The translations under genes were made by a program, and so were the position numbers. From positions 1 to 27,537 of the IMG/VR virus record IMGVR_UViG_3300047368_000270: DNA of 27,537 bases; one strand, given 5' to 3'. The first letter of the stretch is position 1; every line of letters begins with the position of its first letter. The stretch is from a virus. Below are positions 5,711 to 27,359 of the stretch, one piece after another. The notes beneath the pieces were generated by a model. The model worked only from the letters and a program-made list of their open reading frames with translations. It was not told the origin of the DNA and searched no databases.

Positions 5711-6733
5711 ATGTCGACAATAAAAATTAGGAATTTACCACTTGCAACTAACGAGCAAGTCAAACCTGGAAACTTTTTAGCCTGCGCCCTTGACACAGAT
5801 TCTGGGCTACAAAAATTAACTAGAAAATTGACGCTCAGCCAAGTTGTTTCAGGCGGCCTTCAAGATGGCGCTGTTCCGATACCTATTACATCCCTACCTA
5901 TTGCCACAAACAACTCTCTTGGAGTTGTACAAATTGGAGCAAATTTGAATATAACTCCAGAGGGAATTTTGAGCGCCGATAATTCAACTACCCCCTATCA
6001 ACTACCAACGGCAAGCGAAACTGTTCTTGGGGGCATAAAAGTTGGAGATAACCTAACAATAGATCCAGATGGAACCTTGAACGCCCCTACGCCAAGTGGC
6101 GGAGGAGGCTCAGGAAGCGGAACACCTAATTGGAGCAGTGGATGGGTCAATACAGACAGTACTACATCTGTAGCTAACGGGGCTACACTTAATTTTACGC
6201 ATAATTTGGGTAGCGCTGATTTAATTTTTACTCTTTATGCAGCTGACGATAATTCAGGAACAAACACTGTAGCTATTGGCGTGGGCTCAGACCTAGGTAG
6301 CAGCGGGGTCACTATGGCAGGAGCGCAAATTCAATCAGTATCCTCAACCCAGGTGACATTGCAATTAGGTAGCTCTGGGTATAATACATTGAATTCTACG
6401 GGACAACGAGTAAATGGCTCGGAAACCAACTATACAGGAAAGTTCATAAAAATAGTAGCAAGTGCTGGTGGTAGTGGCGGCGGCACTTTTTATGCTTTTA
6501 CTTCAGGTATTATCACGAATGAGGGCCAACATACAATAACTTATCCTGCCGGATGGACCAGTGGAATTCCTGATAATATTATAGTCAGCACTCAATATCC
6601 CACAGGGGATGCCAGCTCTACTGTTCACTTCCAACTGGTAAGTTTTACTGCAAGCGCTGTTACTGTTTTTGCGCAAGCTGGAGCGGCTACATTCGCAACA
6701 CATTTTTGCGATGTCCTTCTAGTTAAAAACTAA
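5711..6733 (+). CDS. Tail-fibre/receptor-binding-like protein, 340 aa
   Basis: A modular adhesin-like protein. Residues 1-50 (STIKIRNLPLA..) form an anchor-like segment common in phage virion proteins. Two fibre repeats follow, LPIATNNSLGVVQIGANLNI with GILSA and LPTASETVLGGIKVGDNLTI with GTLNA. A Gly/Ser linker (residues about 130-139) leads to a domain starting at Trp141 (WSSGWVNTDSTTSVANGATL, then NFTHNLG) that also occurs twice in the 809-residue fibre at 20631. The last 80 residues resemble the gp53-like tip domain of tail fibres (VSTQYPTG..VSFTASAVTVFAQAG..) and also match an internal part of the large fibre. It would sit at the tail tip or on the capsid and contact the cell surface. 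The 3' end overlaps the convergent minus-strand gene by 4 bases. Confidence 0.75.
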   Translation: MSTIKIRNLPLATNEQVKPGNFLACALDTDSGLQKLTRKLTLSQVVSGGLQDGAVPIPITSLPIATNNSLGVVQIGANLNITPEGILSADNSTTPYQLPTASETVLGGIKVGDNLTIDPDGTLNAPTPSGGGGSGSGTPNWSSGWVNTDSTTSVANGATLNFTHNLGSADLIFTLYAADDNSGTNTVAIGVGSDLGSSGVTMAGAQIQSVSSTQVTLQLGSSGYNTLNSTGQRVNGSETNYTGKFIKIVASAGGSGGGTFYAFTSGIITNEGQHTITYPAGWTSGIPDNIIVSTQYPTGDASSTVHFQLVSFTASAVTVFAQAGAATFATHFCDVLLVKN

Positions 6734-20630: not shown

Positions 20631-23060
20631 ATGACGAGCTGGAGTAGTGGATGGGTAGAGATACCAATTGTAGGTTTCCCGCAAGTTCGGAATTTGAACT
20701 TTACTCATAATTTAGGTACTAGTGATTTAGTTTTCTCGGTTTATTGGTATGATACTGCCGCGGCCAACACAGACCCCATATCCGCCGAAGGCACTTATGC
20801 CATCAATAATGGTTACAGCTATGGATCAAGGATAAAAATATTAAATGACAACGATGTTACCTTGTCCTTAATGAAGGATGGCTTTTCAGGGGGCGACTGG
20901 AGACCTACTCTTGCGCCAGCTTATATAAAATTAGTAGCTATTTCTGCGGTAGCGGACCCAGAACCAGAACCAACAGCCGCCGGGGCGAGCTGGAGCAGTG
21001 GATGGGTCGACACAGACGGGACAACTGCAGTGGCCAATGGAGCTACACTATCTTTTAATCACAGCTTAGGTATTGAAGATCTCGTGTTTGAAATATTTGC
21101 TAGGGACGCAAATGGCGGCACAAACTCTGTAAGAATAGATACACAAGACGGTGATGCGGGCAGTAATTATGGCGCACAAATACAAAACATTGAAACAAAT
21201 ACATTTACGATTCAATTAGCCCAGAATGGCATTATAAGATCTTCAAATAACGGCGGTACATCCGCTATTGATTGGGACGGTCAACAAATAAAAATATTAG
21301 CTGCAGCTATTACTGCAAATGAACCAGAAGCCGCTGGAACAGAAGTAATATTCATTGAGCCTTATGATATAACCCCAGTTGACGGTGCCTGGACAAAAAT
21401 AGACGCACAGCCAGCGTGGGCAAATTCTAACGCAAGAACCCTCGTGGTAAAAGCTGAAACGGTTGACGCTGACACAGGGGGCAACACCAACCAGTCTTTA
21501 AAAGCAAGAACCTCTGCCGCATCCACAATAGAAGTTGACATCATAACTCACGGAGGCACAAGCGGCCAAAGATCGGTGGCGAGCGAGCAAGCCTTAATAC
21601 CATGCTCAGAAGATGGATCCTTCGAATATCATTGGTATCGCAGTTCTTCTAACGGTGGATTAAGGAGTTTTAGAGTTGTTGGCTATATATACAAAAGCCC
21701 TTTTCTTACTGGCGCCGGCGATTTATGCAAACTTTTTCCAGACGACTCAGGCTATCAAATGTTTCGTAATGGATTAACGATGCAGTGGATGAGCAGTCCA
21801 GCATTTACTACAGAAACATCACAGGTAGTTAATTTTCCGGTACCGTTTGCTTCAAAGCCATTTAAGGTTGTTGCGTCTACACGCTTCCCGAGCGGAGTCG
21901 TCAATACCCACGAAACAATGCAAGTTGTCAGTTGGGATGCCTCAAGCGTTACTATTCTTGCGCAATCAATTACAGGATCCTTTAATCCCGTGTACGCCGA
22001 TATAATCGCCATAGGAATAGCGGAAGTAACGGGCTGCTCCACAGGCGGCGGAGGCGGAGGCGGAGGTGGCGATGTCGACGGCATAAAAGTAAGCCAGTTA
22101 ACAAATGCCGCAGAATTAAAAGACGACGACCTGTTTTTGCTTTCGAGAGATAATGAGCCTGACGGATCCTATGATATCAGTAAAAATGTTAAACTTAGCG
22201 ACATAGCAAAATATATCGCCGGAGCAGAGCCACCGGCACCCACTCCTCCCGCTGAGGGCATTGTTCATTTTAGCTCAAAAATAATAAGCAATGCTGCCAG
22301 TAGTACCGAATCAAAAGCCTTTGAAGACGATGACTCTTCAGATATAACTGCTGCGGGAGTTTATGAAATTCAATCGACTTATGCGTTTGAATCTTTTAAT
22401 TATGCGGGAGTTGGATTTTACACCAGACTTGACCCGAATAGATCTGGCGATGGATGGAGTAGCTCTACTGGACTAGGAAAAGCCGTGCCAACCGTTGCAA
22501 AGCAAGATATGAAATCCATGGCAATTCCAGCAGGAACAACCGTTAAGTTCTCCTTGGACTGGACTCACTTAGGTGCGACTTACGTTCATCATCAATACAC
22601 CAGAGAAGACTTGGTATTTTTCGAAATTACTGGCCCAGCACTAATAGTTGATCTATCTCCTGGAGAGTCACTTCCGGACGCTTCCTCCGGTACGCACTTA
22701 GCGAGCATGGGAATAACCCAAGCTAAAGTTTATAACTGGTACAATATATTACCGTATCCCGAAAATGATTTTTTTAATTATGCGGATAGATACCGCACTA
22801 TATTCGACCAAGGCCAAGAAAGAATGGCTTATGAGGACATAACATTGGCATGTAGAGCACCAAAAATAAATAGCCTGTATCATAACCTGACCGGGGAACT
22901 CCAATGGGCCCAATATCTAAATGCAGAGTTGTTTTTTCATGGCGATGCTCCAAGTACTTTTAATTCGTTGTTTAAAGTGCCAGCTAGCAATATTGGGACC
23001 GCAATTGACCAAAGAACTCTACGCAATATGCCCTATACGTCAACTTTGATTATAGAGTAG
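20631..23060 (+). CDS. Large multi-domain tail fibre / adhesin, 809 aa
   Basis: A strong Shine-Dalgarno (GGAGG) precedes the ATG. Two copies of the WSSGWV domain lie at residues 4-115 and 121-240; they match the single copy in the protein at 5711. Residues about 250-360 are a beta-rich domain, and about 380-465 resemble the gp53-like fibre tip (RNGLTMQWM.., VASTRFPSG.., SSVTILAQS). Nine consecutive Gly (472-480) then link to a segment IKVSQLTNAAELKDDDLFLL, common in virion proteins, and to a C-terminal domain of about 260 residues with many aromatic residues. It probably mediates host recognition. Sharing domains with the other fibre points to duplication or recombination. Confidence 0.8.
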   Translation: MTSWSSGWVEIPIVGFPQVRNLNFTHNLGTSDLVFSVYWYDTAAANTDPISAEGTYAINNGYSYGSRIKILNDNDVTLSLMKDGFSGGDWRPTLAPAYIKLVAISAVADPEPEPTAAGASWSSGWVDTDGTTAVANGATLSFNHSLGIEDLVFEIFARDANGGTNSVRIDTQDGDAGSNYGAQIQNIETNTFTIQLAQNGIIRSSNNGGTSAIDWDGQQIKILAAAITANEPEAAGTEVIFIEPYDITPVDGAWTKIDAQPAWANSNARTLVVKAETVDADTGGNTNQSLKARTSAASTIEVDIITHGGTSGQRSVASEQALIPCSEDGSFEYHWYRSSSNGGLRSFRVVGYIYKSPFLTGAGDLCKLFPDDSGYQMFRNGLTMQWMSSPAFTTETSQVVNFPVPFASKPFKVVASTRFPSGVVNTHETMQVVSWDASSVTILAQSITGSFNPVYADIIAIGIAEVTGCSTGGGGGGGGGDVDGIKVSQLTNAAELKDDDLFLLSRDNEPDGSYDISKNVKLSDIAKYIAGAEPPAPTPPAEGIVHFSSKIISNAASSTESKAFEDDDSSDITAAGVYEIQSTYAFESFNYAGVGFYTRLDPNRSGDGWSSSTGLGKAVPTVAKQDMKSMAIPAGTTVKFSLDWTHLGATYVHHQYTREDLVFFEITGPALIVDLSPGESLPDASSGTHLASMGITQAKVYNWYNILPYPENDFFNYADRYRTIFDQGQERMAYEDITLACRAPKINSLYHNLTGELQWAQYLNAELFFHGDAPSTFNSLFKVPASNIGTAIDQRTLRNMPYTSTLIIE
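22044..22070 (+). repeat. Glycine-codon repeat (nine GGN codons)
   Basis: Nine Gly codons in a row, mostly alternating GGC and GGA, within the large fibre gene. Gain or loss of units would keep the reading frame and change only linker length. Confidence 0.85.
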
Positions 23061-24323: not shown

Positions 24324-24352
24324 CGCAACCTGTTGAACAACAACAACTTATG
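24324..24352 (+). repeat. Degenerate 29-base half-unit of the 71-bp element family
   Basis: Starts CGCAACCTGTTGAA and ends AACAACAACTTATG. It differs by only a few bases from the right half of the element at 26790-26860. The second half is absent and the flank is C-rich instead of the usual GC palindrome. Confidence 0.65.
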
Positions 24353-25267: not shown

Positions 25268-25582
25268 ATGAGAAAAGTAACACAAAGAATAAAAGAAGCA
25301 TTCAACAAAGGCAAATCTTTAAAAATAGGTAATACACGAACAGACGGCAACGTCGTTTGGTTGCATGGCAACGCAATTGTCAAGCGTGACCCTGACGGGT
25401 TGGTGCGTTGGTCGCTTGCCGGATGGAATACTCCTACAACACGCGAACGCGTCAATGGCATAGCAAATGCCGGTGTTTGCCAAAAGAACTTCGTACCTAT
25501 GTTAAACAATCACGAAATTGACTCATCCGATTGGTTCGCTTCGCCTAATAAGTTACCTAATCCTTTTGCGTTTTTTATATAG
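25268..25582 (+). CDS. Conserved phage-type small protein, 104 aa
   Basis: The sequence FNKGKSLKIGNTRTDGNVVW, LHGNAIVKRDPDGLVRWSLA and GWNTPTTRERVNGI matches a pattern that I recall from many phage and some bacterial proteins of unknown function (GNT..G..LWLHG..IA..GW.T.TTRERLNG). The fold is probably small and beta-rich. It is the last gene of the unit driven by promoter 3 and is followed by a terminator 23 bases after its stop. Base composition is more GC-rich than in its neighbours, which fits recent arrival, though I have not measured it. Confidence 0.75.
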   Translation: MRKVTQRIKEAFNKGKSLKIGNTRTDGNVVWLHGNAIVKRDPDGLVRWSLAGWNTPTTRERVNGIANAGVCQKNFVPMLNNHEIDSSDWFASPNKLPNPFAFFI

Positions 25583-25604: not shown

Positions 25605-25628
25605 TAGCCCACTATGTGGGCTTTTTTG
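25605..25628 (+). terminator. Intrinsic terminator after the three-gene unit
   Basis: Stem AGCCCA / TGGGCT with loop CTATG, followed by a run of six T that starts at the last stem base. Confidence 0.85.
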
Positions 25629-25645
25629 TGCATAATGCTATCGCC

Positions 25646-25675
25646 CTAAGTCGTTGGTTATCAGTAAAAGTTATG
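25646..25675 (+). repeat. Degenerate half-unit next to element A
   Basis: Starts CTAAGTCGTTGGTTATCAG and ends AAAAGTTATG; it is a worn copy of the 29-base unit, one base before element A. Confidence 0.6.
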
Positions 25676-25676
25676 C

Positions 25677-25747
25677 CGTAAGTCGTTGACTATCAGGCAC
25701 TTACGGCGGCCTGGCCGGCGTAAGCCGTTGACTATCAAGTACTTACG
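25677..25747 (+). repeat. 71-bp double-hairpin element A
   Basis: Two 29-base units (25677-25705 and 25719-25747) around a 13-base GC-rich core (25706-25718, containing the perfect palindrome CGGCCTGGCCG). Each unit has ends CGTAAG(T/C) and ACTTACG and a centre GTTGACTATCA. It follows a terminator, so it is not needed just to end transcription. It precedes promoter 4. Confidence 0.9.
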
Positions 25748-25784
25748 GAAAAATAAAATAAATGAAAAATAATAGCCAAATAGC

Positions 25785-25819
25785 TTGACTCTTGCCGGTT
25801 CTTCCTTTATGTTATATAT
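25785..25819 (+). promoter_or_regulatory. Early-type leaderless promoter 4
   Basis: TTGACT at 25785-25790, 17-base spacer, TATGTT at 25808-25813, ATATAT, then the ATG at 25820. It starts 38 bases after element A. Confidence 0.7.
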
Positions 25820-26002
25820 ATGTTTAATGATAGACACCTCCTCTTTCAAAAGGTTCAAGCCGATATCTTCTTTCACAAGGAAGTTATCAGAAACGAGAGT
25901 GACCCCACTCTCGTCAAGATCTCTCTTGATCTGTTAAAGCAAAATCAAGATTGGCTTGCTGAATGGCAAGCTCAGAACAAACTAACCTTAAGTAAAAACT
26001 AA
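25820..26002 (+). CDS. Small helical protein, 60 aa
   Basis: Opens MFNDRHLLFQKVQADIFFHK and continues with EVIRNESDPTLVKISLDLLK and QNQDWLAEWQAQNK, so it should be mostly two helices. No motif is recognised. It forms a one-gene cassette with its own promoter upstream and the 71-bp element B starting seven bases after the stop. The -10 hexamer is six bases from the ATG, so a leaderless mRNA is predicted. Confidence 0.7.
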   Translation: MFNDRHLLFQKVQADIFFHKEVIRNESDPTLVKISLDLLKQNQDWLAEWQAQNKLTLSKN

Positions 26003-26008
26003 AAATTT

Positions 26009-26079
26009 CACAAGCCGTTAACTATCAGGCACTTACGGCGGCCAGGCCCGCGTAAGTCGTTGATATACAGGCACTTACG
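26009..26079 (+). repeat. 71-bp double-hairpin element B
   Basis: Units 26009-26037 and 26051-26079 around core GCGGCCAGGCCCG (26038-26050). The left unit has CACAAGC in place of CGTAAGT, the right one is intact. It starts just after the stop of the 60-residue gene and precedes promoter 5. Confidence 0.9.
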
Positions 26080-26116
26080 ACAAAATAAAAAAAAGTAAAA
26101 ATAATTGAAAAAAAGT

Positions 26117-26151
26117 TTGACTTTAGCTAATTTATCCCCTATGTTGTATAT
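26117..26151 (+). promoter_or_regulatory. Early-type leaderless promoter 5
   Basis: TTGACT at 26117-26122, 17-base spacer, TATGTT at 26140-26145, GTATAT, then the ATG at 26152. The 29 bases around the -35 are nearly identical to those of promoter 7. Confidence 0.75.
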
Positions 26152-26502
26152 ATGAAATCATTATATAATACAGATACAAAAGAATTCACTTTTAACTTTA
26201 TCATGTGCATCGAAGGCAAAGCCTACAAGGTCGAGGCTATAGCTTGCGAGGATGATATCATGGTTAACGATGAGTATCGCCCTCAGTACATAGATGTTTA
26301 CATGGCTAAATTGACAAACGAAAAAACAAACGAATTGACAGAATCTAATGTCTACCAAAATAAAGATCTCTTGAAGGCTGTAAGCGATAAGCTCACAGAA
26401 AGGTTGATCGTAAACGCAAACAAAACTTGGTTTGTTACTGATGCTCCAAGAATCTTCAGAGAACAATTCGACTCTTGCCTCGAAATAATGTTTAACAAAT
26501 AA
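26152..26502 (+). CDS. Hypothetical early-region protein, 116 aa
   Basis: Starts MKSLYNTDTKEFTFNFIMCI, followed by a strand-rich part (EGKAYKVEAIACEDDIMVND, YRPQYIDVYMAKLTN) and a helical C-terminal half (DLLKAVSDKLTERLIVNANK, then FREQFDSCLEIMFNK). No family or membrane segment is recognised. It has its own leaderless-type promoter, and the next promoter starts 13 bases after its stop. It is one of the larger proteins of the small-gene region. Confidence 0.75.
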   Translation: MKSLYNTDTKEFTFNFIMCIEGKAYKVEAIACEDDIMVNDEYRPQYIDVYMAKLTNEKTNELTESNVYQNKDLLKAVSDKLTERLIVNANKTWFVTDAPRIFREQFDSCLEIMFNK

Positions 26503-26515
26503 TCCCTTAAAACGC

Positions 26516-26550
26516 TTGACAATAACCAAATAATCCTTTACTTTATACTT
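26516..26550 (+). promoter_or_regulatory. Early-type leaderless promoter 6
   Basis: TTGACA at 26516-26521, 17-base spacer, TACTTT at 26539-26544, ATACTT, then the ATG at 26551. No 71-bp element precedes this one. Confidence 0.7.
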
Positions 26551-26745
26551 ATGAACGAAAAACAAAGATTACAACAAATTATAAACGACAACCTCGAAGC
26601 AGCGAACAACGGCTCAGGTTCAGCAATGATGCAATGCGTGGCGGCTCAAGCCGACCTTGACAGAATAGCACAATCGGAGGCTAATGAGTTAGAGGCTTAT
26701 ATCGCCCACACACCATTGCCCGAACCCCTCATTTTAGTTGACTAA
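26551..26745 (+). CDS. Small protein, 64 aa
   Basis: Opens MNEKQRLQQIINDNLEAANN and is helical through AQADLDRIAQSEANELEAYI, with a Pro-rich end (PLPEPLILVD). No family is recognised. It has a leaderless-type promoter and is closed by a strong terminator seven bases after its stop, making a complete single-gene transcription unit. Confidence 0.7.
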   Translation: MNEKQRLQQIINDNLEAANNGSGSAMMQCVAAQADLDRIAQSEANELEAYIAHTPLPEPLILVD

Positions 26746-26752
26746 TTTAACT

Positions 26753-26775
26753 GCCCCGAAAAGGGGCTTTTTTTT
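26753..26775 (+). terminator. Strong intrinsic terminator
   Basis: Stem GCCCC / GGGGC with a GAAAA loop, followed by eight T. It closes the unit of promoter 6 and lies 14 bases before element C. Confidence 0.9.
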
Positions 26776-26789
26776 GGGCTTGTTTATAT

Positions 26790-26860
26790 CGTAAGTCGTT
26801 GAATATCAAGGGTTTACGGCGCCCAGGCCCGCGCAAGTCGTTGAATAACAACAACTTACG
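26790..26860 (+). repeat. 71-bp double-hairpin element C
   Basis: Units 26790-26818 and 26832-26860 around core GCGCCCAGGCCCG. The left unit ends GGGTTTACG, identical to the left unit of element D. The right unit (..GAATAACAACAACTTACG) resembles the half-unit at 24324. It precedes promoter 7. Confidence 0.9.
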
Positions 26861-26887
26861 AAAAGATAAAAATAATTGAAAAAAAGT

Positions 26888-26922
26888 TTGACTTTAGTTA
26901 AAAACTACCTTAGTTTATAAGT
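26888..26922 (+). promoter_or_regulatory. Early-type leaderless promoter 7
   Basis: TTGACT at 26888-26893, 17-base spacer, TAGTTT at 26911-26916, ATAAGT, then the ATG at 26923. Confidence 0.7.
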
Positions 26923-27093
26923 ATGATAATAATTACAAGAAATAAAAACTTCTCAGAATGGATCAACATTTCAATGTTTGGAAAATTAATTGACAATTGC
27001 AAAAACACTGCTAGAGCAATGCACATTGCTACAAAACTGCAAATCGAGTACAAATCCAAAACGGGCGAAAAGCTCCACATTACACAAAGGTAA
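26923..27093 (+). CDS. Small basic protein, 56 aa
   Basis: ATG at 26923 to TAA at 27091-27093. It reads MIIITRNKNFSEWINISMFG, then KLIDNCKNTARAMHIATKLQ, and ends basic (KSKTGEKLHITQR). It is net positive, probably helical, with no known motif. The gene is supported by the promoter six bases upstream of its ATG and by the next gene starting three bases after its stop. Confidence 0.7.
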   Translation: MIIITRNKNFSEWINISMFGKLIDNCKNTARAMHIATKLQIEYKSKTGEKLHITQR

Positions 27094-27096
27094 ATT

Positions 27097-27285
27097 ATGA
27101 CTAAAATAGAAATTCAAAAAGAAATAGTTGAACTCCATAACGCACTAAAAGAGTGCATTTTGACTGACTCGCAAAAAGTTTCAATACGGAACGAAATTGG
27201 TCAACTGGAAGATGAGCTTTCACTTCTTGACTTCCAGGAGCATGATGATTTCGATTATGGCTACCATGACCAATACGACCAATAA
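27097..27285 (+). CDS. Small coiled-coil-like acidic protein, 62 aa
   Basis: The first 45 residues look like a coiled coil (MTKIEIQKEIVELHNALKEC, then SIRNEIGQLEDELSLL); the C-terminus is Asp/Tyr/His rich (EHDDFDYGYHDQYDQ). It has a Shine-Dalgarno-like AAAGG seven bases upstream, as expected for a second gene in an operon, in contrast to the leaderless first genes. It follows the 56-residue gene and ends four bases before element D. Confidence 0.7.
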   Translation: MTKIEIQKEIVELHNALKECILTDSQKVSIRNEIGQLEDELSLLDFQEHDDFDYGYHDQYDQ

Positions 27286-27288
27286 AGT

Positions 27289-27359
27289 CGTAAGTCGTTG
27301 AATATCAAGGGTTTACGGCGGCCGGGCCCGCGCAAGTCGTTGATATTCAGTAACTTAGG
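27289..27359 (+). repeat. 71-bp double-hairpin element D
   Basis: Units 27289-27317 and 27331-27359 around core GCGGCCGGGCCCG. The right unit is somewhat worn (ends ACTTAGG). It lies between convergent genes (27285 and 27439), so no promoter for the small-gene region follows it. Confidence 0.9.

Follow-up and report, generated by a model that had tools for sequence, protein, structure and literature searches.

Why would a phage hold several intergenic elements to one length while their sequences vary, and is it the DNA or its transcript that is constrained? The question is raised by a virus record of 27.5 kb (27,537 nucleotides in full, hereafter the window), which encodes a distant phage-type terminase large subunit and PhoH, gives a weak match to sigma-70 region 2, and is filled over its last 3 kb with small plus-strand open reading frames (ORFs).

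Four 71-bp elements and the genes around them

The initial annotation placed four elements of 71 bp at 25677, 26009, 26790 and 27289, and both the positions and the build it described are exact, every element consisting of two palindromic units of 29 nt separated by a GC-rich core of 13 nt. Element 1 (25677-25747, plus strand) joins units at 25677-25705 and 25719-25747 through the core GCGGCCTGGCCGG at 25706-25718, and stands in a tandem gene junction downstream of an intrinsic terminator-like hairpin (about 25605-25630). Element 2 (26009-26079, plus strand; units 26009-26037 and 26051-26079, core GCGGCCAGGCCCG at 26038-26050) also lies in a tandem junction, without a terminator and with the stop codon of ORF 25820-26002 located 6 nt upstream. 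Element 3 (26790-26860, plus strand; units 26790-26818 and 26832-26860, core GCGCCCAGGCCCG at 26819-26831) occupies a further tandem junction, downstream of a terminator-like hairpin (about 26752-26781). Element 4 (27289-27359, plus strand; units 27289-27317 and 27331-27359, core GCGGCCGGGCCCG at 27318-27330) is found at a convergent junction, between ORF 27097-27285 on the plus strand and an ORF on the minus strand that runs in from the end of the window.

Two half-units had also been proposed: a degenerate one at 24324-24352 (plus strand; score 21 of 27), where the array region begins, was recovered as described, while the second (25645-25673, plus strand), on the upstream side of element 1 with a gap of 3 nt, starts one position earlier than the 25646 first given. 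The claim that the units of an element share one orientation is meaningful only in part, because each unit is itself a palindrome. In total, 9 units in the window reach a score of 20 of 27 or higher when compared with the unit consensus, whereas 25 dinucleotide-shuffled windows held a mean of 0.08 such units and never more than one; the elements are real and far above chance expectation.

Three of the elements are followed by predicted promoters. After element 1, at a distance of 37 nt, a predicted sigma-70 promoter spans 25785-25813 (plus strand; -35 TTGACT at 25785-25790, -10 TATGTT at 25808-25813), with 6 nt between the -10 box and the start codon, a leaderless geometry. The predicted sigma-70 promoter after element 2 (26117-26145, plus strand; -35 TTGACT at 26117-26122, -10 TATGTT at 26140-26145) lies at the same distance of 37 nt and has its leaderless start at 26152, and the one predicted after element 3 (26888-26916, plus strand; -35 TTGACT at 26888-26893, -10 TAGTTT at 26911-26916; leaderless start 26923) lies 27 nt from the element, which is one helical turn shorter than for elements 1 and 2. 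The leaderless appearance, with the -10 box ending 6 nt before the start codon, is seen at 25808-25822, 26140-26154 and 26911-26925 as well as in related loci, and genes after elements are mostly leaderless, 55 of 87 having their start codon 6 nt past the -10 box. A promoter does not need an element, because several short gaps hold a promoter without one, for example upstream of ORFs 25019 and 26551.

Upstream of element 1, a 104-aa ORF (25268-25582, plus strand) belongs to PHROG_554 (function unknown), a family present in 78 of the 86 related loci analyzed and mostly encoded directly upstream of an element. In Autographiviridae, e.g., Vibrio phage VEN, a relative of this ORF is located 1.4 kb from the left end, and by analogy with this placement the element region is probably early. 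Elsewhere in the window, an SWSSGWV-type coding motif is repeated at 6126-6150, 20635-20659 and 20986-21010 in two proteins, one of which, of 809 aa, matches a tail fibre family, which suggests a repeated domain common to both.

A family with a core length typical of each lineage

Relatives were gathered by means of PhoH and of the 104-aa ORF and then screened for elements, which were present in 18 of 53 PhoH loci, many of these loci being short or ending before the region, and in most of 80 loci with the 104-aa ORF. A pattern scan of IMG/VR matched at least 120 stretches, many of them carrying unit-core-unit arrays. In all, the family was found in well over a hundred uncultured phage contigs, and 711 distinct elements were pooled. 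Among the matches listed, those in the larger records, which reach about 200 kb, are concentrated in a single region, and the pattern read backwards, used as a control for such records, gave 0-2 matches per strand. Of 27 further element-bearing records, 15 encode a terminase homologous to that of the window, at 38-67% identity, which makes the carriers largely one broad uncultured group.

No annotated phage was found to carry the family: the first element had no BLAST match in INPHARED or PLSDB, and array DNA of another lineage matched INPHARED in genes only. A GTDB scan with the double-unit pattern returned 84 matches, mostly chance or unrelated Bacteroidota palindromes, with no comparable arrays noted. 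In some Bacteroidota chromosomes (loci L290, L320, L335, L340 and L363), two GTTGATNATCA-type palindromes flank an inverted repeat in a superficially similar layout. Searching the literature for the motif as text retrieved primers and similar sequences only, and no description of the element was found in the open-access literature. The family of repeated regulatory DNA is thus large and, in the text searched, undescribed; its carrier phages are common in environmental metagenomes.

The 29-13-29 build holds for all four elements of the window, but a 13-nt core is not universal, as relatives keep a 29-N-29 arrangement with N set by lineage at 12/13, 17/18, 19, 20/21, 23/24, 26 or 29. Core length therefore spans 12-29 nt between lineages and is nearly fixed inside one genome, 77% of elements having the modal core length of their own locus and 90% deviating from it by at most 1 nt, whereas random pairs of elements from the pool have the same length 14% of the time. 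The earlier observation that lengths are fixed though copies vary is thus true within a genome, where copies share a median identity of 71%, and it follows that the geometry is kept in each lineage while the sequence drifts. Selection, or some other means of maintenance, must keep the length constant within a genome, and the core length typical of each lineage offers a handle on the joint evolution of such elements. The core itself is short, GC-rich and imperfectly palindromic.

RNA structure or protein-binding site

The constancy of length had been taken to suggest a structural constraint, with each element folding into two small hairpins or one long stem. At the RNA level, the elements would then be tandem hairpins at transcript 3' ends that act in termination, processing or mRNA stability, which would be in line with the palindromic units and core, with the location between genes, and with the A-run, GC repeat and T-run often present in the 20-24-nt core classes. 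When covariation of the arms was assessed in 72 aligned 71-mers of the 13-nt class, none was seen for the long stem, in which unit 1 pairs with unit 2 (0.149 vs. 0.154 in shuffles), whereas the two-hairpin model showed a modest excess (0.179 vs. 0.148), mainly from pairs 2-28, 6-24 and 9-21; in the larger pool, pair 2-28 alone exceeded a within-genome shuffle. An apparent negative covariation inside the elements was attributed to the pooling of both orientations and discarded. Selection on RNA would tolerate G-U pairs; no G-U excess was found on the transcript strand, G-T and A-C mismatches being equally common in the oriented units and long stem, and hence the RNA strand is not the one under selection. 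A GC hairpin followed by a U-tract, as in an intrinsic terminator, was recognized in just 10 of 245 oriented elements, which agrees with the earlier view that simple termination does not explain them, and an Rfam search of the window gave no match. Moreover, the invariant bases fall where a protein consensus predicts them and the phasing of downstream promoters (see below) has no explanation in RNA, so that an RNA-level role is unlikely; the long-stem and hairpin reading does not hold up, and a symmetric DNA-binding site fits the data better than an RNA structure.

The pooled unit consensus is cGTAAgTcgTTGAnnnTCAAcgAcTTACG, in which A4, A5, T11, A19, T25 and T26 are conserved at 98-99%. Its right half is WATCAR-N4-TTR, the E. 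coli IHF consensus WATCARNNNNTTR (PMC7962754), and its left half an inverted copy of it. Exact matches to WATCARN4TTR occur in 62.5% of 1422 units and matches with at most one mismatch in 91%, against 0.04% and 0.35%, respectively, at random positions. Within the window, exact matches are found at 25733 (plus) in element 1, 26053 (minus) in element 2, 26804 (plus) in element 3, and both 27303 (plus) and 27333 (minus) in element 4. The degenerate consensus positions are obeyed as well (A or G occupies position 20 in 99.4% of units and position 27 in 98.7%), and the N4 gap is exact, since other gap lengths give almost no matches.

The pooled units are twofold symmetric, and the unit centre was recovered identically in a rerun in which the centre was ignored. 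IHF sites are usually not palindromic, and their A-tract is usually on one side, 5' of the consensus; beside the units, A/T richness of the flank is weak (65% AT vs. 60% for the genome). Consensus halves face the core somewhat more commonly than outward (604 vs. 453), and the near unit, on the promoter side, is somewhat better conserved than the far unit. Conservation beyond the IHF consensus is seen for A at position 23 and T at position 7, each at 84%, and for the outer CG, and as positions 7 and 23 are conserved above the need of IHF, another protein or an added constraint is possible. No match to HU/IHF family genes was obtained above the cut-off in the element-bearing phage records examined, which fits the use of host IHF. 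Judged from their sequence, the units look like a symmetric protein-binding site that resembles an IHF site.

We give about an even chance to the explanation we favor, namely that the element acts at the DNA level, as a boundary and as a site of promoter architecture built from paired IHF-type units. Each 29-nt unit comprises two overlapping, opposite-facing copies of the recognition sequence, and two such units flank a core with a length typical of the phage lineage. During early infection, both units would be occupied by host IHF or by a bending protein that shares its specificity, which would kink the DNA into a compact complex that parts the upstream from the downstream transcription unit, and the bend would turn upstream DNA to the RNA polymerase at the next leaderless promoter, which could work only on the right helix face; at convergent junctions, with no promoter, the separating role alone would apply. 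IHF was reported to bind repeats on the 3' ends of transcription units and to act in a manner that depends on gene orientation, and a modulation of gyrase was proposed (PMC7826290; PMC2817692). IHF alone does not account for the fixed core length of each lineage. If IHF does bind, the virus would be dividing up an entire gene region with an architectural protein borrowed from its host.

Promoter phasing and the regulator alternative

The strongest functional sign is the phasing of elements to promoters, which calls for a DNA-bound protein. For promoters of leaderless geometry only, with an element to -35 distance of 4 to 90 nt, this distance has a 10.5 bp period (n = 316 flanks, R = 0.39, p = 8e-22), which was retained as similar flanks were filtered out ever more stringently (p = 1e-8 with 111 flanks left, 8e-5 with 66 and 4e-4 with 41). 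The phase reference is the near unit (R = 0.40) rather than the far unit (R = 0.10), and phasing to the near unit was found in every core-length class tested. When loosely scored promoters were used, phasing weakened under strict de-duplication, whereas the leaderless-only set was robust. Lying on the helix face of the next promoter, the element probably helps to organize the switching-on of genes, and the 10.5-bp rule makes a clear prediction for reporters. At lambda pL and Mu Pe, an IHF site is likewise located upstream of an early promoter and shows helical-phase dependence, but those are single sites, whereas in these phages a whole gene region is marked by dozens of double sites in each genome. 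It is conceivable, though somewhat doubtful, that a widespread group of uncultured phages, with genomes reaching about 200 kb, employs its dozens of paired IHF-type palindromes for insulation and, at the same time, to fix the rotational phase of the leaderless early promoters; if this is true, they would constitute a phage-borne architectural code with a lineage-specific spacer, of which none was described in the literature searched.

Helically phased promoters would also suit an operator or stoperator array, in which a dimeric phage regulator, made after the early phase, shuts the phased promoters and blocks elongation elsewhere. The unit is twofold symmetric and strongly conserved, positions 7 and 23 included, and is present in many intergenic copies in one region per genome, and mycobacteriophage stoperators provide a phage precedent for such arrays (PMC9283540). 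Like the elements, stoperators of the L5 type are many short intergenic sites in a phage, the binding of a protein being putative here, but they are 13-bp, asymmetric and direction-dependent sites bound by a monomeric phage repressor (PMC9283540), whereas the phage elements are 29-bp twofold-symmetric palindromes in fixed pairs. A regulator array nevertheless seems rather unlikely, as the same unit serves lineages with terminases only about 40-60% identical, whereas the specificity of phage repressors usually changes quickly; its degeneracy tracks IHF at every specified position, and the analysis turned up no candidate for the regulator.

A second motif, CA-N5-CGTGCCAA, is found beside many elements at an offset of 19-20 nt, and sometimes 30-31 or 41-42 nt (examples are L127:4701-4720, L132:1864-1883, L372 and L209), and only beside elements in the loci scanned. 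On the reverse strand it reads TTGGCACG-N5-TG, like a sigma-54 promoter aimed at the element.

Gene boundaries and shuffled cassettes

Bacterial BIMEs are thought to partition gene regions via a host architectural protein, and E. coli RIB/BIME-1 is the nearest known kind, although the phage element is not a member. Both are repeated intergenic palindromic elements between transcription units, with an IHF-type recognition sequence and two palindromes joined by a linker of set length. The layout, however, is inverted, as two IHF-type palindromes surround a GC core in the phage element and two REPs surround one IHF site in RIB/BIME-1. The phage units are not REPs, a REP-type (Y1) transposase (PF01797) is absent in 20 records, and, unlike the chromosomal RIB/BIME-1, the element resides on phage DNA and is helically phased to the promoter. 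RIB/BIME-1 is found at the 3' ends of transcription units. For the phage element, a preference for 3' ends is not secure: inside arrays and with redundancy removed, gaps of >90 nt contain one in 76% of tandem junctions, in 84% of those that are convergent and in 60% of those that are divergent. An initial claim of a strong 3'-end preference was dropped, since an early divergent count of 24% became 60% without redundant loci and array edges (12 of 20 divergent gaps inside arrays; p = 0.10 vs. other junctions). Overall, 411 of 431 elements are intergenic.

The genes between elements are heavily shuffled among relatives, and alignment breakpoints at elements are modestly enriched (222 vs. 163 expected), as might be expected if early gene cassettes were rearranged through the elements, acting as dif-/attC-like recombination sites or as mobile elements of the REP type; the 29 nt can also be read as 11-7-11, in the style of a tyrosine recombinase core site. 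Homologous recombination at repeats can shuffle genes as well, however, and neither Phage_integrase (PF00589; 15 records) nor resolvase (PF00239) and the Y1 transposase (20 records, several of about 200 kb) was found. With most convergent junctions holding one element, not two, and promoter phasing left unexplained, recombination sites are unlikely. Integron attC and pdif modules likewise place palindromes, of a length typical for the genome, between small gene cassettes, but in the phage records examined there is no recombinase, promoters lie inside the cassettes, and the unit sequence is conserved beyond the fold alone.

The small genes between elements form a shuffled pool, in which the same families recur in varied order and orientation, sometimes twice per genome (loci L127, L370, L372 and L443), and they are a ready source of unknown early phage proteins. 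Among 83 non-redundant tandem cases, there are 17 in which the TAA within unit 1 (CGTAAG) coincides with the upstream gene's stop codon (distance -5).
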